A stretch of DNA of 64,000 nt from Planctomycetes bacterium syqfu. Lineage in GTDB: Bacteria; Planctomycetota; Phycisphaerae; Phycisphaerales; Phycisphaeraceae. The notes under the pieces were generated by a model. The model was given only the letters and a program-made list of their open reading frames with translations, was not told the DNA's origin and searched no databases. Shown piece after piece: positions 10,530 through 19,685 of this stretch. A program made the translations under genes and the position numbers. Each line of letters begins with the position of its first letter. Position 1 is the stretch's first letter. Location of the stretch: contig CP087563.1 in the NCBI GenBank assembly GCA_020974905.1, positions 868,001-932,000 of the forward strand. The letters run 5' to 3'.

Positions 10530-13500
10530 TCACATGCGTTTGAGATATTGCAGGAAACGGTCGAGGACGACTTGTTGGATGGGGTCTTGCTGCTGCCAGA
10601 CTTGTGAGCCGATCCACCAATACCATTGGTCGTGACGCAGGAACGCGGGTACTTCTTTGCCATCGGGTAATGTCAAAGTCCCCTGTACCAGAACTGCTTC
10701 GAGTAAGTTCTGCGGGTCGAGAATCGGTGCGTGGTTGGAGAGTTGCACCTTGCCTGTTTGCTTGACAGGGAATTGCCAATTGATCGGGAAGTTGGGATTG
10801 GACGTGATCTGCACCGGTCCCTTCCAAATACCCGCGTCTTCAAAATCATTACGCAGTCGGATGGCAATGGTGTTGGTCTGCCCCCACTTGATGGCATGAT
10901 CCGGGATGACATACTCGCGCGGCGCCAGCCAGTAGTGATGCTGAGCCTTGGTGGTCTTACCAATGAATTGACCGTTGATGAAAGTCCAATCGTAATCGTC
11001 CATCGCACCAGCCTGGAAGGTCAACGTGCGCCCCTTCCAATTGGCGGGGACTTCAAACGTGCGAACATGCCAGGCATCACCCATGAAGTAACGAGACGAA
11101 CCGAGCAGGCCGACTTCGCCCCACTTGCCGGGCACGATGACTTTCTTCCAATCCGTCGTTTCAGTGATTAAAGGCGTTGGTAATTTTTCCGGGCCACTGG
11201 GTGTGTCACCAAGATGCTTCCATGCCCATGATCCGGTGAGATCGATTTGCCCAAGGTCATCACCTGAGAGCGGCCTGAGATTGGCCTGCTTGATGAATCG
11301 CTGATCCGAAGCGAGCATGGCAGGTAACCCCTGTTGCATCGGGCGACATAAAGCATCGGTATCCAGACGCCCAAAGAGCAACACACGTCCCTTGTACGTT
11401 TTTGCCAACACGTGGAGCAGGTCTGCATCCATGTAACTGCTGCAGGAAATGACGGCTTGACAGTCATCAAGTAACTGTGGCTGCTCGACAATTTTCAGAC
11501 CTTCAAACAGTTTGACCTGATACCCACGCGCATCGAGCATGGTAATTAAATCCCCTGTTTTTTCAGCATTAATTGCAGACAGGCGTGTATTACTGATGAT
11601 CGCGACAGCCGGTCGATAGTCGGGCTTGGGCCAATGAGTTCGTATCCATTGAGACATACCCGGTAGATATGCCGTCGAAGGTTTCATATGCCAATCATCG
11701 TCTGAGAGCAGCATACCACCACTGCCACGGGCATGAAATGCGAACGGGCAGAAACCAAGTCCCATTTCGACGTGACGTTCAACCAGCTTGCTGGCATGTT
11801 CCATCTGACGTTCCGAGTCATAACTGGCTAATGTCAGTGATTTAGCTTCAAGGGCGGTCTTGCCCCCCATGCCGTAATGCGTACCAATGTTGACGTGCTC
11901 ACCAAAGAGCGTGTTGATGGCGTAGTAACTGATCGGCACACGACTCACGTCATACATATCACCAATCGTTCTCTGTGACATCCCGACAGCATCGGGAATC
12001 GATTCACGAATGACGGACATGATGCGCGTCGACAATGTCTTTTGAATGTGAGACGCGAAGCGCAGGTGATCCCAGAGACGAGGGTTGTTCATGTAATTGT
12101 GATTGACATCCACCGGTTCGTCTTCCTGATACCCCAATGGTTCGATGGTGTTTTCATCCCAGTTTTCTTCGGGTTTCAGCTGATATTTTGCAGACTGAGA
12201 TTGATTGCCCATCCATGCTTTGGCTAACGCTTCGCGGGTTTTGTATTGTGTCTTGAGCCACTGGTTCCATTGGATCACCATGTTGGGATAATCCTTCATG
12301 CCTTTGGGACCGGAAGCAAAATTACTCTCATTGGTTGGGACTTCAAAAGCAAGTATGTTCGGCGAATCCTTAAACGCAATTGCCAGGCGCCGCCAGGCAT
12401 CCACGATTGCGTCGGGCCAATGATAAATGTTGTGTTTGACCTGTGAAATGAGTTTGGATTGGGTGGGCATATCCGGCTGGCCCTTCACAAACCAGTCCGG
12501 GAACGGCCAGTGCATGTCCACACTCACTGCCAGGCCGTACCGCTCAGCTTCCTGCATGATGTCCAACATGATCTGCAGGTATTCCTGATTGAACTGACCT
12601 TGTGTCGGCTCGATGTTTTTCCAACGGATATGTAATCGCAGACCGTTGAATCCCATGCCTGCAAGATATTTGACATCCCATTTTTTCCACTGTCGGGAAG
12701 GGTCTTTCTCGCTGTAGAGGGCTCGGAAAAAGTGCGGGCCATACATCCGAAATGGTTGACCGGTCGGACGTGTGAAGCGGCCATCTTCTGCGATATGCCA
12801 ACGTCGTTTGGCAAAGGGAATCTGCTTGGCCAAACCATCTACCCATTGATTTAATTGCTGCTGATAGGCAGCAAGTGAAGTTGTGATGTCAGCACCTGCG
12901 ATGAGTTGACGGAGCAATTGTTGGCGTTGATTTTCATAGCTTTGCGCTTTGCTTTCATCCTGACTGAGTTGGCCCCAGTGTCTGATCAGTTCGTCGAAAG
13001 CAAGTAATGCGACCGCATCCCACGCCTGTTTCTCAAGGCGATCAGCATCGAGTTTCTCCTCAAGCAATCTGAGATTAATCCCACGATCCGCAATCCATCG
13101 GAGCATGGTTTGACGTGCGTCTGCAAGATGTTTATCTGCATGTTTTCGGTAGGCGTTGGCCCCTTTCTGATCCTTGAAAATCAGTTCAATGCGAATAATG
13201 CCAAGATCACCAAGCTGGTTGATTCGGGACAATTCCACACCGGTGATTGGTGGATGCTTCTTGACGTTCAGGTCTTCCCAGAACAAGTCGAACGTGTTCT
13301 TTCCGGGCTTGAGGTTGAGTGTCTTATTGCCATGAGCTTTGGTTCGGTAGAAGTTATCACCACCGCTATGCATGCGCCATTGCAGATCGACTGCTTTGTC
13401 GGTGATCAGTTGCAGTTGGACACCCGCTAGCTTGCCGATTGCTTCATCGGGGAGTGCGATACGCATCACCGCCCAATAACGTTTGGCCAATGGCTCGTCG

Positions 13501-13772
13501 GTCTCCTTGTAGACATGCCAGATGGCGTATTGATTGTGTTGGCCTTCATTCTTGAAATCGAGATGTTGATTGAGTCCTTCAGAGCGAATAAAGCCGTTGG
13601 GTCTTGCCAGCGCATCGAGTGGTCGGGCAACTGGTGAGATCGGTGTTTTTGAATAGTCCTGCCAAGTCACATGGACCGGTTCCTGAGCCTGTAAAGCAGA
13701 GACGGCAAAACCAACAGCCAGGAATGCACACAATGATATGAGCCAGCGATACATCAATGCGTATCTCCTCAA
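10530..13772 (-). CDS. Large secreted glycoside hydrolase, clan GH-A barrel with accessory domains
   Basis: 1080-aa exported protein (signal peptide ending near ALQAQ, residue 30). Domains seen in order: a beta-rich N-terminal module (about 35-205), a helical linker (205-320), a TIM barrel with GFNGLRLHIRWKNIEP at 374-389 and FEVPTNES at 477-483, whose N481-E482 fits a clan A acid/base pair, an alpha/beta domain (about 745-850), and a C-terminal jelly-roll like the sugar-binding domain of GH2 enzymes (about 870-1000). The nucleophile is not assigned. Last gene of the second LacI cassette. Family and substrate remain open (GH5/GH42-like). Confidence 0.72.
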   Translation of the reverse strand: MRRYALMYRWLISLCAFLAVGFAVSALQAQEPVHVTWQDYSKTPISPVARPLDALARPNGFIRSEGLNQHLDFKNEGQHNQYAIWHVYKETDEPLAKRYWAVMRIALPDEAIGKLAGVQLQLITDKAVDLQWRMHSGGDNFYRTKAHGNKTLNLKPGKNTFDLFWEDLNVKKHPPITGVELSRINQLGDLGIIRIELIFKDQKGANAYRKHADKHLADARQTMLRWIADRGINLRLLEEKLDADRLEKQAWDAVALLAFDELIRHWGQLSQDESKAQSYENQRQQLLRQLIAGADITTSLAAYQQQLNQWVDGLAKQIPFAKRRWHIAEDGRFTRPTGQPFRMYGPHFFRALYSEKDPSRQWKKWDVKYLAGMGFNGLRLHIRWKNIEPTQGQFNQEYLQIMLDIMQEAERYGLAVSVDMHWPFPDWFVKGQPDMPTQSKLISQVKHNIYHWPDAIVDAWRRLAIAFKDSPNILAFEVPTNESNFASGPKGMKDYPNMVIQWNQWLKTQYKTREALAKAWMGNQSQSAKYQLKPEENWDENTIEPLGYQEDEPVDVNHNYMNNPRLWDHLRFASHIQKTLSTRIMSVIRESIPDAVGMSQRTIGDMYDVSRVPISYYAINTLFGEHVNIGTHYGMGGKTALEAKSLTLASYDSERQMEHASKLVERHVEMGLGFCPFAFHARGSGGMLLSDDDWHMKPSTAYLPGMSQWIRTHWPKPDYRPAVAIISNTRLSAINAEKTGDLITMLDARGYQVKLFEGLKIVEQPQLLDDCQAVISCSSYMDADLLHVLAKTYKGRVLLFGRLDTDALCRPMQQGLPAMLASDQRFIKQANLRPLSGDDLGQIDLTGSWAWKHLGDTPSGPEKLPTPLITETTDWKKVIVPGKWGEVGLLGSSRYFMGDAWHVRTFEVPANWKGRTLTFQAGAMDDYDWTFINGQFIGKTTKAQHHYWLAPREYVIPDHAIKWGQTNTIAIRLRNDFEDAGIWKGPVQITSNPNFPINWQFPVKQTGKVQLSNHAPILDPQNLLEAVLVQGTLTLPDGKEVPAFLRHDQWYWWIGSQVWQQQDPIQQVVLDRFLQYLKRM

Positions 13773-13814
13773 GAATACAAATGGGATCAGTTATGTTTGA
13801 ACCGTGAAAAACAA

Positions 13815-14555
13815 TCAACCGCCGGGAAACGGTGTGACGTAAAAGCGGCCGGTGGGGTTGGTGCTTGAAGAATAAATGTCGTCATATTGCAGGACCTGAC
13901 TGTGCATATCCAGCATCAATCCGTTGAGACGGCCATTACCTCTTTCGTAATTACTGATGAGAACGGCCTCGGTGGAACCGTGATAAAAACCCATCTCACC
14001 GCGACCGTACATGGTGTTGGTGTAGTATCCGCCATAGGCATTGTTGGACTTACGCCACGCAGCATCGGTCAGCATAACGACCTGGCTTAGACCATAGCTC
14101 GCATCATCAAGTCGCAAACCACGACTGAAGTTTTGTCGACTATCGGGCATCCCGCTGCGTGCGTTCATGGCATAGGTCACCACATCCGTGCGGCCTTTGT
14201 ATGTCAGCAATCGTGGGCATTGGAAAAGCTTGAGTTGATTGGCTGTGAGATTACTCGGTTGATCATCCATGTTCACCGATGAATCGATCTCATGAGCAAG
14301 CGTCGTTGGCCAGGAATGATAGTCGGTCAAGCCGTTGTTATACGGGATCGGTAGATGGTTATCGTTGTTGTTGGCATAGACCATCATCACCGTGCCCATC
14401 TGTTTTTCATTTGCAAGACACTGAACATTTCTTGCTGCGTCTCTTGCTTTAGACAATGCCGGTAAGAGAATTGCAATCAAGAGAGAAATGATGGATATCA
14501 CCACCAGTAATTCAATCAAGGTAAATGCGTTTGTTTTGTGTGGACGAAGGCTCAT
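13815..14555 (-). CDS. Pseudopilin-like secreted protein (cassette 2)
   Basis: 246 aa. Residues 1-9 are a short basic leader ([10 protein letters not shown]) before [12 protein letters not shown], with Ala at -1 and Glu at +5, then the hydrophobic helix running into [12 protein letters not shown]. The C-terminal region [16 protein letters not shown] is a degraded H-X9-DG motif (the His and the Gly are altered). It lies 20 bp after the LacI gene and 42 bp before the glycoside hydrolase, so all three are probably co-transcribed. Confidence 0.85.
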
Positions 14556-14575
14556 ATATCTCTCCTGCCAATGTA

Positions 14576-15667
14576 TTAAGGCCTGGTATCAGTCGGGGGT
14601 GCGACTGTACTACTGCGGATGGCTAACTCGGGTGAAAAAACACGGACATAATCAGGATCAAGTGAGTCTGACTTCTTGGATTGCAACAATGTCACCAACT
14701 CCTTGACAGCAGCATCGCCCATCGCTTCCAGAGGATGTCGAATGGAAGTGAGGTTGGGTTCGGAATGGAAACACCATTGTGAATCATCTATGCCGATGAC
14801 ACTCATCTCACGAGGTACGTCGACGTGCTCTGAGAGATGACGAATCGCATGCACTGCTGCAAGGTCGTTGTAACAGAGAATGGCTGTCGGACGATTGGCT
14901 TTGGGTAGACGTAACAAATGTCGCGCACCGCGCAGGCCTTCAATCTGACAGTAGTGATCCTGGCTGGTGAGGGGTTGCTTGGGATCAAAGCCACAGTGAA
15001 CCCATGACGGATCAATGTCCAAACCAAGTTCCTGTGCAACTTCGACAAAAGCATCGTTTCTGATCTGACTGTCTTCGATCGGTTGTTCCAGGCAGGTGCC
15101 CAGATAACCGATGCGTCGGTGGCCAAGTTCCATCAGGTGTTCTATCGCCAGTTTGACTGCCTGCTTGTTGTCAAAAAGAATCGTCCTGAAAAAGGAACTG
15201 GGGATCGCTGGATCGATCATAACCACGTGGCGCGTGTACTGGGCCAACTCTTTAACCCACGACGCGCGGGTGTCCGGCTGGATGAGCATCATGCCATCCA
15301 CTCGCCGTTGCGCCAGCTTCTGTACGCAGATTTCACCTGAATCATCACCGGTGAGATTGATGAGCATCAGGTCATAGCCCGCCTGCTTGGCAGCCTTTTC
15401 AATACCGATGAGAATGGCATTTTCATAGTGATGGCCAAGCCCCGACCACGGCCGCGGCGGGACATAAATCCCCAGCGTCCGCGTGGAACGATTAATCAAC
15501 GACTGGGCAGCAAAGTTGGGTTGATAGCCCATCTTTGCAGCAACTTCTAAAATCCGCTGCCGCGTCTGCTCCTTGACCACGGGACTATTGCGCAATGCAT
15601 GCGAAACCGTCACGTGCGAGACACCAACAGCAGAGGCAATGTCTTTGATGGTGATGTTCTTGGCCAT
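14576..15667 (-). CDS. LacI-family transcriptional regulator (cassette 2)
   Basis: 363 aa. Helix-turn-helix [20 protein letters not shown] (residues 5-24) and hinge region, then a sugar-binding-protein-like effector domain. First gene of the operon containing a pseudopilin and the 1080-aa glycoside hydrolase. An inverted repeat built from two CACGTG cores lies 22-47 bp upstream of the start and is a good candidate for autoregulation. Inducer unknown. Confidence 0.9.
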
Positions 15668-15825: not shown

Positions 15826-17037
15826 TCAGACTGGTTCGCCAGCAATTTCTTCGTCGGTCAGGTAACAACCGGGGTCCGCTGCCCAGGGGTTGCCGGTGCT
15901 GATCTCGGCACGGGCGCGAAGTGAGCCACCGCAGACGCTCTTGAACCGGCAATTGGCGCAGCGACCTTCGAGTTTGGGTAAGCGGTCCTTGAGCCCTGCC
16001 ATGATCGGGTCGGATGTGTCGGTCCAGATTTCGGAGAACGGGCGTTCAGTGACATTGCCGAACTTGCGATACATGGAGAACTGGTCGGCGTGAACATTGC
16101 CAAAGAAGTCGATGTCTGCGATGCCGACTCCTGAGGAGTATCTCGCCCCACCGTTCCACTTGAGCATGTCGAGCACCTGGTCAGCACGCGGATGGTTTTC
16201 GGCTTTCATTTTCAGATAGAGATACGGACCATCGCAGTGGTTGTCGACGGTGAGAATTTCGATACGTTTGCCTTCATCGTGAAACTGCTTGGTGCGGCGG
16301 AAAATCGTGTCCATGGCTTTGCGGGATGTCTCATGATCCATGGCATTGAGATCCACGCCACGACCTGCAGGACACAGGTGATAGAAGCAGGCACGGTTAA
16401 TGCCTTCACTGTCAATGAAGTCGAAAATGCCGTCCAGATCATCACAGGTATGACGCGTGAGGGTCAAACGAAGCCCGACTTTCTGCCCGACATCCACACA
16501 ATGTTTAAAGCCTTTCATGGTGCGATTAAACGCGCCCTGCATGCCACGAAATTCGTCGTGAACCTTGGCGTGAGCACTGTCGAGTGAGATGCCTACGTAA
16601 GCAAATTGCAGGTCTTTGAGACGCTGTGCGGTGGCACGGTCGATGAGTGTCCCGTTGGTGGAAAGGACCACGTGAAGCTTCTGGGATCGGGCGTATTCAG
16701 CCAACTCGAAAATATCAGGACGCACCAGTGGCTCACCGCCAGAGAGCAGTAACGCGGGGACTTTGAACTCGGCAAGATCGTCGATCAATGCCTTGCCTTG
16801 CTCGGTGGTCAGTTCGTCGGGATATTTGATGGCTTCGGATTCGGTGTAACAGTGAACGCACTTGAGATTACACGTCCGGGTGGTGTTCCAGACAACGATC
16901 GGCCGACGCTCTGCTGCCGACCGGGCAACCTTCATGCGTTGATGTTCAGGCGGGTCGATTTGCGTAATCGCGCGACCGTAACGGTGAGGCGTGCTGGGCG
17001 TCTCAAGGCCACAGTAAAGAACACTGATGTCGATCAT
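15826..17037 (-). CDS. ahbC: Radical SAM protein, AhbC-type (12,18-didecarboxysiroheme deacetylase)
   Basis: By family, AhbC removes two acetate side chains from didecarboxysiroheme to give iron-coproporphyrin III. The product is 403 aa; the radical SAM cluster ligands are C56, C60 and C63 (CNLKCVHC), LLSGGEPLVRPDI is the SAM-binding GGE motif, and a SPASM-type cysteine cluster (CANCRFKSVCGG) lies near the C-terminus. NirJ of heme d1 synthesis is a close relative; adjacent ahbD-like and ahbAB genes and no other nir genes favour AhbC. Confidence 0.82.
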   Translation of the reverse strand: MIDISVLYCGLETPSTPHRYGRAITQIDPPEHQRMKVARSAAERRPIVVWNTTRTCNLKCVHCYTESEAIKYPDELTTEQGKALIDDLAEFKVPALLLSGGEPLVRPDIFELAEYARSQKLHVVLSTNGTLIDRATAQRLKDLQFAYVGISLDSAHAKVHDEFRGMQGAFNRTMKGFKHCVDVGQKVGLRLTLTRHTCDDLDGIFDFIDSEGINRACFYHLCPAGRGVDLNAMDHETSRKAMDTIFRRTKQFHDEGKRIEILTVDNHCDGPYLYLKMKAENHPRADQVLDMLKWNGGARYSSGVGIADIDFFGNVHADQFSMYRKFGNVTERPFSEIWTDTSDPIMAGLKDRLPKLEGRCANCRFKSVCGGSLRARAEISTGNPWAADPGCYLTDEEIAGEPV

Positions 17038-17167
17038 GGCGGGGTGATCCTTTTCTCTGGTCCTGTTAATTTCCGACTGTGATCCAAACCATCGTAATCA
17101 TTTTCAGCAATCGGGCCTCGACAGAACAGGCGTGCAAATTATTCTAGGATCAAAGACTTAACAGACA

Positions 17168-17181
17168 TTGACCCAAGTCAA
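17168..17181. promoter_or_regulatory. FNR/CRP-type box between ahbC and ahbD
   Basis: TTGAC-CCAA-GTCAA is a perfect 5-4-5 palindrome matching the FNR/Dnr architecture (TTGAT-N4-ATCAA). If it sits at -41.5 the start would be near 17216, and TACATT at 17204-17209 falls exactly in the -10 position, a class II activated promoter reading toward ahbD. Regulation is inferred from sequence only. Confidence 0.6.
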
Positions 17182-17258
17182 GGATCGGGGCTTGGTTTCC
17201 CGATACATTTGAGGTATTCTTATCTTAATATCTTTGACCTGAAGATGCGAGGAACTCA

Positions 17259-18608
17259 GTGAACTTCGCCCTTCAAGCAGAACACGAGAAATGGCCCCCC
17301 GCCATGAAACCCATTCTCCCAGCCAACATGCACATGCGCCCCGGCGAGCATCCCGGTGCTGCGGATCATGCAAAAATGACCCAACAGGCACAGGGTGTTG
17401 AACCTGCAGAGCAATCGCAGGCTGGCGCTACAGCCATGCCTCCCGAGATTGCAAGACAACTTGAACAAACTCAAGGTGGACATCCATCGCATCATCCTGG
17501 CAGCGCACCATCTGAACATCCGATGATGGATTACAAAGCCGAGGACGTGCATCACAGCCCGTTTCTGATTTTCTACGAAACCACACGTGCCTGTGATCTG
17601 GTGTGTCAGCACTGTCGGGCCTGTGCCCAATCCAAGGCTCATCCCAATCAGCTTACCACCGAAGCTTCCAAGGCGATGATCGACGCGTTGGCCAAGTTCC
17701 CGAAAAAGCCCCTGCTCGTTATGACCGGCGGTGATCCGCTCAAACGCCCTGACATTTACGAACTGATCCGGCACGGTAAATCCAAAGGCATGCGCATTGC
17801 CATGACGCCCTCAGCAACACCCTTGGTCACTGCCGAAGCAATAGCTGACCTGCGTAATGCCGGTGTTTCGCGGATGGCGATCAGTCTCGACGGTGCCGAC
17901 GCCAAAACGCATGACGCGTTTCGTGGGATTGATGGGATTTTCAAACGAACCTTGCGCATCATTGATGACACGCATGCAGCAGGTTTGCCCATGCAGATCA
18001 ATACCACCATCACCAAGCGTAATTACGACCAGATCGATGCCATCGCCGAACTGATCAACCGCCCCGGCGTGGTGCTCTGGTCGGTGTTCTTCCTGGTCCC
18101 CGTTGGTCGTGGCTTACGTGAACAAGGCATTGAACCGGGCCAATACGAGAAAGTCTTCGCCAAGCTTTGGCAACACGCTCAAACCAAGAACTATGGCGTG
18201 AAGACCACCGAAGCGCATCACTACCGTCGTTTTGTGCTTCAGCAAAAAGGTGATCCGCAAGCCAATCCTGCAGCGCTGGCTGGCAAGCCCAAAGTCCAAC
18301 GCGCTCCCATCGGGATCAGCGACGGCAAAGGTGTCATGTTCATCAGTCACGTCGGTGACATGTATCCCAGCGGATTCCTGCCGATCAACTGTGGGCATTT
18401 TCCGGATCAGTCGCCGGTGGATGTGTATCAGAATAATGAGACATTCAAGAGCCTGCGTGATCCAGACGGCTTCACCGGCAAATGCAGTATCTGTGAGTTC
18501 CGCAAAGTCTGTGGGGGCAGCCGCGCCCGTGCCTACGCGGTCACACGCAATCCGCTGGCTTCCGAACCCGACTGCGTCTACATCCCCAAAGCCTGGAACA
18601 ATCGCTAA
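17259..18608 (+). CDS. ahbD: Radical SAM/SPASM protein, AhbD-like (heme b synthase)
   Basis: Probable enzyme for oxidative decarboxylation of the two propionates of iron-coproporphyrin III to the vinyls of heme b. The GTG start at 17259 follows GCGAGGA at 17247-17253. The first ~95 residues are a low-complexity extension rich in His, Gln and Pro; the radical SAM ligands are C112, C116 and C119. The C-terminus has CSICEFRKVCGGSRARAY and a final Cys. Related radical SAM/SPASM families share this layout, so the AhbD call rests partly on position beside ahbC and ahbAB. Confidence 0.75.
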   Translation: MNFALQAEHEKWPPAMKPILPANMHMRPGEHPGAADHAKMTQQAQGVEPAEQSQAGATAMPPEIARQLEQTQGGHPSHHPGSAPSEHPMMDYKAEDVHHSPFLIFYETTRACDLVCQHCRACAQSKAHPNQLTTEASKAMIDALAKFPKKPLLVMTGGDPLKRPDIYELIRHGKSKGMRIAMTPSATPLVTAEAIADLRNAGVSRMAISLDGADAKTHDAFRGIDGIFKRTLRIIDDTHAAGLPMQINTTITKRNYDQIDAIAELINRPGVVLWSVFFLVPVGRGLREQGIEPGQYEKVFAKLWQHAQTKNYGVKTTEAHHYRRFVLQQKGDPQANPAALAGKPKVQRAPIGISDGKGVMFISHVGDMYPSGFLPINCGHFPDQSPVDVYQNNETFKSLRDPDGFTGKCSICEFRKVCGGSRARAYAVTRNPLASEPDCVYIPKAWNNR

Positions 18609-18635
18609 ACACAAATCGACCAAAGGCAACACCTC

Positions 18636-19685
18636 ATGCCCCAGTCCCCGACATTAAGCGATCTGGATGCCAAACTGTTAAACCGCATCCAATCGTCCAT
18701 CCCATTATCGCCAACCCCCTTTGCCCAACTTGCCAAAGAGCTGGACATTGACGAAGCGACCTGCATCGAGCGACTCATCGCGTTGCGTCATGATCTGCAA
18801 TACATCCGTCAGATCTCCCCGATTTTCGATACGCATGCCCTGGGTTACGCATCAAGTCTCGTGGCTGCCAAAGTTGATCCGGACAAACTCGAGCAAGCTG
18901 CCAGCGTGATCAATGGGCATCCGGGGGTGTCGCATAATTACCAACGTGATCATGCCTTTAATCTCTGGTACACCTTGGCGGTGAGTCCGGACAGCAAACT
19001 CGGTTTGGAAAAGTCCGTTGAAAAACTCCATGCGTTATCCGGCGCGGAGTCAACGCGCATCCTGCCGACACTTAAGCTTTACAAGATTGGTGTGAAGCTG
19101 AACATGGCCAAGACGACCGATAACAGCACATCTCCCAAAGCCAATCATTTCACCCAAGCGGATCGACAGGCTGCAGACAAGACGCCGTTAACGCAACAAG
19201 ACCGTCAACTCATTCGCGTCCTGCAACAGGATTTACCCCTTGTTTCCAGGCCGTTCGATGCCATGGCAGATGAAGTTGGATGCAGTGTGGATGAATTACT
19301 TTCAGCCTGCCAGCGTTTTCTTGATGCCAAGCAGATGCGTCGGTTCAGTGCTGTGTTGCAACACCGTAAAGCAGGCTTTGGTGCCAATGCGATGGGGGTT
19401 TGGCAATGCCCTGAAAATCAACTCGATGAGATGGGCGCCAAGGCTGCTGCGTTTGATGAAGTCAGTCACTGTTATCACCGCCCTGCTTATGACGATTTAC
19501 CTTACACGCTTTACACCATGGTGCATGGCAAGAGTATCGATGACGCTTTGGACGTGTTAAAACGAATCCAGCAAGCCACTGGCATAAAAAACTACTCTGC
19601 TTTATGGAGTACCCACGAATTTAAGAAAGTCCGTGTGTTATACTTCACAGACGACGAAGCAAAATGGGAAGAGGAGCACGCCTGA
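18636..19685 (+). CDS. ahbAB: Fused siroheme decarboxylase AhbAB (two Lrp/AsnC-like halves)
   Basis: Siroheme decarboxylase makes 12,18-didecarboxysiroheme, the AhbC substrate. It is usually two subunits, AhbA and AhbB, each with an Lrp-like winged helix and an AsnC ligand domain. Here a single 349-aa chain holds both: residues 1-160 (ending after VSHNYQRDHAFNLWYTLAV-type strand) and 180-349 (with VSHCYHRPAYDDLPYTLYTM), joined by a Ser/Thr/Lys linker. The paired VSHxYxR motifs show the duplication. It follows ahbD by 27 bp. NirDL-type fusions of heme d1 synthesis are the alternative. Confidence 0.82.
   Translation: MPQSPTLSDLDAKLLNRIQSSIPLSPTPFAQLAKELDIDEATCIERLIALRHDLQYIRQISPIFDTHALGYASSLVAAKVDPDKLEQAASVINGHPGVSHNYQRDHAFNLWYTLAVSPDSKLGLEKSVEKLHALSGAESTRILPTLKLYKIGVKLNMAKTTDNSTSPKANHFTQADRQAADKTPLTQQDRQLIRVLQQDLPLVSRPFDAMADEVGCSVDELLSACQRFLDAKQMRRFSAVLQHRKAGFGANAMGVWQCPENQLDEMGAKAAAFDEVSHCYHRPAYDDLPYTLYTMVHGKSIDDALDVLKRIQQATGIKNYSALWSTHEFKKVRVLYFTDDEAKWEEEHA

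Follow-up and report, generated by a model that had tools for sequence, protein, structure and literature searches.

Likely role of a fused-AhbAB gene cluster in siroheme-dependent heme synthesis in a Phycisphaeraceae planctomycete

Of the three routes to heme, the siroheme route is described as the least common (PMC10740692), and archaea and sulfate reducers are the best-known users of the conversion of siroheme to heme. In the Ahb pathway of Desulfovibrio and Methanosarcina, AhbAB, AhbC, and AhbD act as successive enzymes, AhbA and AhbB are split, and AhbD carries a full eight-cysteine SPASM motif. Haloferax volcanii is described with two two-domain AhbAB-type proteins, AhbC, AhbD, and ChdC, and without uroD or cpfC; AhbD serves its anaerobic growth and ChdC its aerobic growth (PMC5746218 and PMC8305020). 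Two two-domain AhbA/B proteins are described for haloarchaea in general, with chdC in nearly all of them and ahbD in two-thirds (PMC8305020). Here, we describe a three-gene cluster in a planctomycete bacterium, Planctomycetes bacterium syqfu, within a 64,000-nucleotide (nt) stretch of its genome (G000:C1:868001-932000; the window). The genes encode a radical S-adenosylmethionine (SAM) protein of the AhbC/NirJ1 type, a radical SAM/SPASM protein of the TIGR04053 family, and a fused AhbAB protein, and together they probably form an oxygen-responsive module that would convert siroheme to heme b. G000 denotes the source genome of the window, and other G numbers denote comparison genomes.

Three neighboring genes and their protein families

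One gene lies on the minus strand and two lie on the plus strand, forming divergent units with 221 nt between them, and the two plus-strand genes are separated by 27 nt (Table 1). The same arrangement is found in the congeners G392 (locus L212) and G394 (L211) and, on two short contigs, in G393 (L218 and L219). Because three family matches adjoin one another and the arrangement recurs in these genomes, the trio is not a product of chance. Close relatives among the matches listed in the genome collection are the metagenome-assembled genomes (MAGs) Phycisphaerales UBA7800 and Phycisphaeraceae NORP295. The three window proteins were scored with NCBIfam hidden Markov models and their curated cut-offs; these scores and the alignments establish, at the sequence level, the protein identities and catalytic residues given below. 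The initial annotation had placed the same three genes here and had recognized two Lrp/AsnC halves in the 349-amino-acid (aa) protein, as found again in this analysis.

Table 1. Features of the heme-related cluster and of two related proteins encoded elsewhere in the genome
Feature	Position	Strand	Basis
AhbC/NirJ1-type radical SAM protein, 403 aa; putative didecarboxysiroheme deacetylase	15826..17037	-	NCBIfam scores, Cys motifs
Divergent intergenic region, common to both transcription units	17038..17258		gene list
FNR/CRP-family-like palindrome TTGACCCAAGTCAA	17168..17181		77 nt before the plus-strand gene, 130 nt before the minus-strand gene
TIGR04053-family radical SAM/SPASM protein, 449 aa, GTG start; putative AhbD (coproheme to heme b)	17259..18608	+	NCBIfam, motifs, tree
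Fused AhbAB, NirDL type, predicted siroheme decarboxylase, 349 aa	18636..19685	+	NCBIfam, domain and PDB matches
AhbA half, residues 12-157	18669..19106	+	NF040708
HNYQR motif, AhbA half, residues 100-104	18933..18947	+	H100 and R104 align with AhbA His115 and Arg119
AhbB half, residues 192-336	19209..19643	+	NF040707
HCYHR motif, AhbB half, residues 278-282	19467..19481	+	H278, Y280, and R282 align with AhbB His98, Tyr100, and Arg102
AhbAB-2, divergent two-domain AhbAB-like protein, 380 aa	G000:C1:392918-394054 (L032:8916-10058)	- in L032	AhbB 77 and AhbA 64 bits, under cut-off
Divergent ChdC/HemQ-like protein, 257 aa	G000:C1:586840-587613 (L261:6841-7614)	+ in L261	PF06778

The 349-aa protein scores 257 bits with the AhbA model (cut-off, 140) and 235 bits with the AhbB model (cut-off, 125), and the NirDL-like helix-turn-helix and AsnC_trans_reg2 domains each match it in two stretches. 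In phmmer searches against the PDB, residues 13 to 347 align with 4ch7, a NirD-like protein of 342 aa that we take to be from Hydrogenobacter thermophilus (E value, 1.3e-72), and the two halves align with two chains of 4czd. Both halves contain VSHxYxR, and K331 aligns with AhbB Lys152 in our own reading of the alignment (chain B numbering minus 20), so that the HxYxR motif of each half and the equivalent of the AhbB lysine are all present. For the aligned AhbA and AhbB residues, the described roles are to ligate iron, contact the substrate, and catalyze the reaction; that of Arg102 was confirmed by mutation (PMC4145669).

The fusion of AhbA and AhbB, which the initial annotation had regarded as unusual, is ordinary and already known. 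NirDL (4ch7) likewise carries both halves in one chain and aligns over nearly its full length with the window protein; the fused form is reported for every heme-making archaeon outside the methanogens (PMC3942049), and also for most Euryarchaeota and 14 lineages of TACK (PMC11237513). The best 80 of at least 591 confirmed relatives in the genome collection are all fused, spanning both halves without an internal stop. In these 80, H, Y, and R at both sites and the other aligned catalytic residues are kept, except that one K330 reads X; because one search pattern contained SHNY, the agreement at H100 and Y102 is in part built in. An AhbAB match is present in 60 of the 392 genomes in the phylum sample, and at least 22 of the 60 are fused (21 unbroken through both halves, plus G029), with the others being separate, stop-separated, or unclear. 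What distinguishes the planctomycete fusion from NirDL and archaeal AhbAB is that it adjoins AhbC-like and TIGR04053 genes. Two fused-AhbAB loci call for separate mention: L181, a MAG contig (CAMCDF010000001.1) whose title, Bifidobacterium breve, looks doubtful, and L295:8899-12106 on a Paenibacillus polymyxa plasmid (NZ_CP010270.1), where NirJ1-like, NirJ2-like, and fused AhbAB genes lie in a row.

The 449-aa protein, whose GTG start codon aligns with an ATG of G394, had been annotated as AhbD-like. As a statement of relationship this stands (333 bits with the AhbD model, TIGR04545), whereas the closest named family is TIGR04053 (452 bits; cut-off, 395); the protein is not filed as TIGR04545 because its score is below the cut-off of 500. 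It contains CX3CX2C and CX2CX5CX20C, the latter fitting the AhbD pattern CX2CX5CX20-38C. In a radical SAM tree of 30 rows, in which 11 of 27 inner branches were well supported and two long branches were flagged, it falls in a TIGR04053 clade (100/99) with proteins of Thermus, Deinococcus, and haloarchaea, apart from the AhbD-like rows. The position following CX2CX5CX2 is Ser in all 12 TIGR04053-clade rows and Cys in all 5 AhbD/NirJ2-like rows. This sets the window protein apart from the eight-cysteine AhbDs of Desulfovibrio and Methanosarcina and resembles the AhbDs of non-methanogen archaea, in which Ser or Glu in place of such cysteines has been described (PMC10452713). An N-terminal extension of about 95 residues (window 17259-17543), His/Met/Pro-rich by eye, lies outside the TIGR04053 model and is shorter in G394.

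Gene context suggests a link between the family and AhbD. Haloarchaeal TIGR04053 genes, whose products include a 502-bit protein of H. larsenii, lie near a gene for a cbb3-type subunit I, which we read as norB-like, in all three records, with an adjoining halocyanin gene in two and nirK nearby in one. HVO_2144 (ahbD) of H. volcanii sits in the same setting; its deletion impairs anaerobic growth, and heme rescues the mutant in dimethyl sulfoxide respiration (PMC5746218). By this context, HVO_2144 is itself probably a TIGR04053 member. In Deinococcus ficus, the TIGR04053 gene is near siroheme and sulfite-reduction genes, and G076 also has TIGR04053, AhbC/NirJ1-like, and fused AhbAB genes in a row. 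No paper naming TIGR04053 was found among the open-licence papers searched. A TIGR04053 gene also occurs on a 2.9-kb plasmid record labelled Campylobacter jejuni (NZ_CP029056.1), which would be an odd host for the family.

The minus-strand protein scores 496 bits with NirJ1, 490 with AhbC (TIGR04546), and 389 with NirJ, all below cut-off (650 for both NirJ1 and AhbC), and it is therefore called AhbC-type and not filed as TIGR04546. Its motifs are CX3CX2C and a C-terminal CX2CX5CX21C, which fits the AhbC pattern CX2CX5CX20-21C, a cysteine motif of AhbC/NirJ taken from PMC12505453; the earlier label, AhbC-like, is borne out. It groups with its family orthologues (100/100), and that group has no supported placement relative to the NirJ, G287 AhbC-like, Paenibacillus NirJ1-like, and TIGR04347 rows. 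PDB matches to the two radical SAM proteins (E values up to 1e-8) are limited to cytosylglucuronate decarboxylase, SkfB, and PqqE.

The intergenic palindrome TTGACCCAAGTCAA is one of two exact matches in the window to TTGAYN4RTCAA, which we take as the FNR-type consensus (20 Markov runs gave a mean of 0.9 and a maximum of 3), and it alone lies outside the kept reading frames of at least 100 aa. In G392 and G394 it is found at the corresponding position, and in G393 it is degenerate; no FNR-type site was found at the other related cluster loci scanned, such as those of G398, G402, G076, G399, and G401. Looser matching gives 239 sites in the window versus 143 in shuffles, so only the exact form and the place of the palindrome carry weight. 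Such a box fits an anaerobic use of the cluster, as the earlier phrase "at least anaerobically" had implied.

At window 10530-15667, a row of minus-strand genes encodes a LacI regulator, a DUF1559 protein of prepilin-like type, and a protein resembling glycoside hydrolases, with weak matches to GH5/GH42.

Tetrapyrrole genes elsewhere and competing explanations

G000 is a single contig of 7,376,598 bases, scored 95.78% complete, and it was compared within a set of 21 genomes, comprising 13 of the same family (G000 included) and 8 others of the order. HemH was found in none of the 13 family genomes, whereas two of the eight other order members match, serving as a positive control, and these two also have HemE, which scores 390 bits in one and 298 in the other (cut-off, 303). 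URO-D matches occur in 8 of the 13 family genomes and in none of the remaining 5. The best URO-D hits of G000, G396, and G399 were considered as HemE and rejected as MtaA/CmuA-like (80, 86, and 102 bits with hemE); this scoring covered those three genomes, leaving out the best hits of G392, G393, G394, G395, and G400. Neither the profile search nor the scoring of the best URO-D match revealed a true HemE in G000; the HemE plus HemH/CpfC pair of the protoporphyrin and coproporphyrin routes was thus not found there, in searches that covered HemE and HemH among the genes of these routes.

The early-step searches covered HemA, CobA-HemD, and SirC, and all three were found in G000. CobA is present in 12 of the 13 family genomes and in one of the eight others; the sole match in G000, a CobA-HemD, lies far from the three cluster genes. 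At four CobA-HemD loci, no neighboring gene is tetrapyrrole-like by eye. SirC matches 12 family genomes (11 over cut-off) and two others (one over), and in G000 the genes for SirC, a PF01578 protein, and HemA lie in a row. G000 thus has the CobA and SirC expected of a siroheme-dependent pathway. The heme-copper oxidase subunit COX1 is found in 13/13 family genomes and 7/8 others, and the cytochrome c assembly domain PF01578 is found in 12/13 and 8/8, respectively; since both are present in G000, the organism needs heme. With neither HemE nor HemH found, that heme likely derives from siroheme, and uroporphyrinogen III would, as far as the searches see, lead to precorrin-2 and not to coproporphyrinogen. 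Siroheme-dependent heme synthesis, as first annotated, is therefore the likely reading of these gene contents, and parts of the siroheme synthase whose absence would have refuted that annotation, CobA-HemD and SirC, were found. Among the open-licence papers listed for planctomycete or Phycisphaera heme routes, none concerned this system by title.

The same cluster might instead serve heme d1 synthesis: AhbAB would be a NirDL, the minus-strand protein would be a NirJ, and the product would go to a cd1 nitrite reductase. NirJ1 is indeed the top model for the minus-strand protein, and a nir cluster on a Roseibium plasmid has Lrp/AsnC-type genes beside a nirJ whose product is 42.6% identical to it. 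The Roseibium NirJ, however, is a long single branch outside the clade of the minus-strand protein, its exact place being without support, and G000, unlike Roseibium, has no notable cd1-type protein genome-wide and has its only CobA match at a distance. Across the 21 genomes, Cytochrom_D1 (PF02239; Pfam cut-off, 25.5) gives only weak matches, the scores being 28.5 bits for G000, 28 for G392, and, below cut-off, 20.5 for G251. In G000, this search revealed no convincing cd1 nitrite reductase (NirS) or NirF/NirN, the nir heme d1 cluster that the initial annotation had named as a refutation was not found, and a heme d1 role is very improbable.

Several observations weigh against conversion of siroheme to heme b. 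Both radical SAM proteins miss their equivalog cut-offs. A Thermus plasmid TIGR04053 protein (483 bits) is encoded beside a gene annotated as nitrite reductase, a point in favor of heme d1, which may be the role of the family in Thermus. The denitrifying growth of the H. volcanii ahbD mutant was not recovered by heme in Tris buffer (PMC5746218). In G077, a TIGR04053 protein occurs without any AhbAB match and alongside HemE, HemH, and a gene that by eye resembles hemY. The stored flanks, many of them short, show AhbC- or TIGR04053-like genes at only 4 of the 80 best fused-AhbAB loci, so the Ahb route cannot be deduced from a fused AhbAB by itself. Of the siroheme steps, the searches covered CobA and SirC; the genome is scored less than fully complete, and heme uptake may take place.

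There are two further explanations. The product of the module may be coproheme alone, or some heme-like tetrapyrrole that is neither heme b nor heme d1, with heme itself being imported. The function of TIGR04053 is predicted for a family unnamed in the literature searched, and Paenibacillus, which carries the NirJ1/NirJ2-like and fused AhbAB cassette on a plasmid, is expected to make heme by another route. Against this, the norB-like and halocyanin neighbors of the haloarchaeal TIGR04053 genes match the setting of a genetically tested ahbD, and HemE and HemH were not found though heme-protein genes are present, which makes another product unlikely. Alternatively, the organism could be auxotrophic for heme, and the genes could form an occasional cassette for salvage or for regulation, with the Lrp/AsnC-like proteins acting as regulators. 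Six other order members (G002, G034, G251, G295, G368, and G403) have no match for HemH, URO-D, CobA, SirC, AhbAB-2, or ChdC, while 5/6 have COX1 and 6/6 have PF01578, so heme import may be common in the order. G000, on the other hand, has HemA, CobA-HemD, SirC, two AhbAB-like proteins, and a ChdC-like protein, and the fusion keeps catalytic residues needless for a pure regulator; auxotrophy is thus quite improbable.

A second AhbAB-like protein, a ChdC-like protein, and their spread in the family

AhbAB-2 is encoded in 11 of the 13 family genomes and in none of the 8 other order members. When 8 of the 11 family sequences were aligned with the fusion, H100, R104, H278, Y280, R282, and K330 were kept and Y102 and K331 were not. 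A flavin-reductase-like gene adjoins AhbAB-2 at 8 of 9 compared loci; it was considered as the missing deacetylase and found no support, being absent from the locus of G352, the genome that most needs it.

The look-up of hemH and hemQ that the initial annotation had advised came out differently for the two genes, with hemH not found and a divergent ChdC/HemQ-like protein found. PF06778 matches in 11 of the 13 family genomes and in one of the eight others (G077). The G000 protein scores 46 bits with PF06778 (cut-off, 25) but only 29 with the NCBIfam ChdC equivalog (cut-off, 253). Its Tyr152 and His175 are invariant in all eight aligned sequences, an alignment that left out G352, G392, G393, and G397, the last having a ChdC of the ordinary type (188 bits). 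A profile search against the PDB retrieved HemQ/coproheme decarboxylase chains (E values, 2e-6 to 2e-3), and in two displayed chains, Tyr152 and His175 stand opposite Tyr and His; we take the YP tyrosine and HG histidine of ChdC to have catalytic roles. The gene row of HemE, HemH, and the HemY-like gene in G077, a genome with a PF06778 match, fits a ChdC role. At 12 compared loci, no neighbor of the ChdC-like gene is tetrapyrrole-like by eye; the gene that follows it is conserved at 10 of them. ChdC has been reported in most Planctomycetota genomes of an earlier analysis (PMC10991733). Given AhbAB-2 and the ChdC-like protein, the window cluster may not be the sole way to the first and last steps.

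The canonical fusion is present in 5 of the 13 family genomes (G000, G392, G393, G394, and G399) and in G185, a family member outside the 21-genome set (in the phylum sample, two of seven family genomes matched). AhbC-like proteins occur in 8/13 and TIGR04053-like proteins in 7/13; a closer AhbD-like protein, under cut-off, was found only in G393 and G399. In G398 and G402, both radical SAM proteins are present but the canonical fusion is not. AhbC was detected in the family through the AhbD model, which picks up AhbC-type proteins at about 206 to 223 bits elsewhere. No AhbC-like protein was among the hits of this search in G352 (99% complete), G396 (83%), and G397 (88%), nor in G395 and G400, no AhbC-model search having been made. 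G352, G396, and G397 all have AhbAB-2 and a ChdC match, and a missing enzyme in place of AhbC is possible there.

Proposed pathway and its significance

The reactions, the regulation, and the aerobic branch set out here are inferred from gene content. HemA, CobA-HemD, and SirC, encoded outside the cluster, would contribute to uroporphyrinogen III and its conversion via precorrin-2 to sirohydrochlorin. The fused AhbAB would then remove two carboxyl groups from siroheme to give didecarboxysiroheme, the AhbC-type enzyme would remove two acetate side chains to give coproheme, and the TIGR04053-type enzyme, acting as AhbD, would convert two propionates to vinyls, giving heme b. In air, AhbAB-2 may carry out the first step and the divergent ChdC-like protein the last, following the haloarchaeal model. 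The gene set resembles that of H. volcanii, where AhbD, by gene context, is probably a TIGR04053 member; here, however, the host is a bacterium, the ChdC-like protein is divergent and has 257 aa versus the 501-aa two-domain PitA, and the likeness is by gene content alone.

The fusion is not new; the interest of the system lies in the family-wide gene set and in those members that seem to be without AhbC. As a tentative and rather doubtful extension, a siroheme route would have taken over from the usual bacterial heme routes in this family, with an anaerobic ending (AhbAB, AhbC, and TIGR04053) and an ending in air (AhbAB-2 and ChdC), and in the apparently AhbC-less G352, G396, and G397, another, possibly non-radical and oxygen-tolerant enzyme would remove the acetates of didecarboxysiroheme. 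The relatives in which no AhbC candidate was found point to such a possible missing enzyme. TIGR04053-type heme synthases with AuxII only would become available for study, a class said to be biochemically unstudied (PMC10452713). If the proposed pathway is true, the siroheme route would also support oxygen-respiring bacteria, in a family with respiratory oxidases and a haloarchaea-like gene set.

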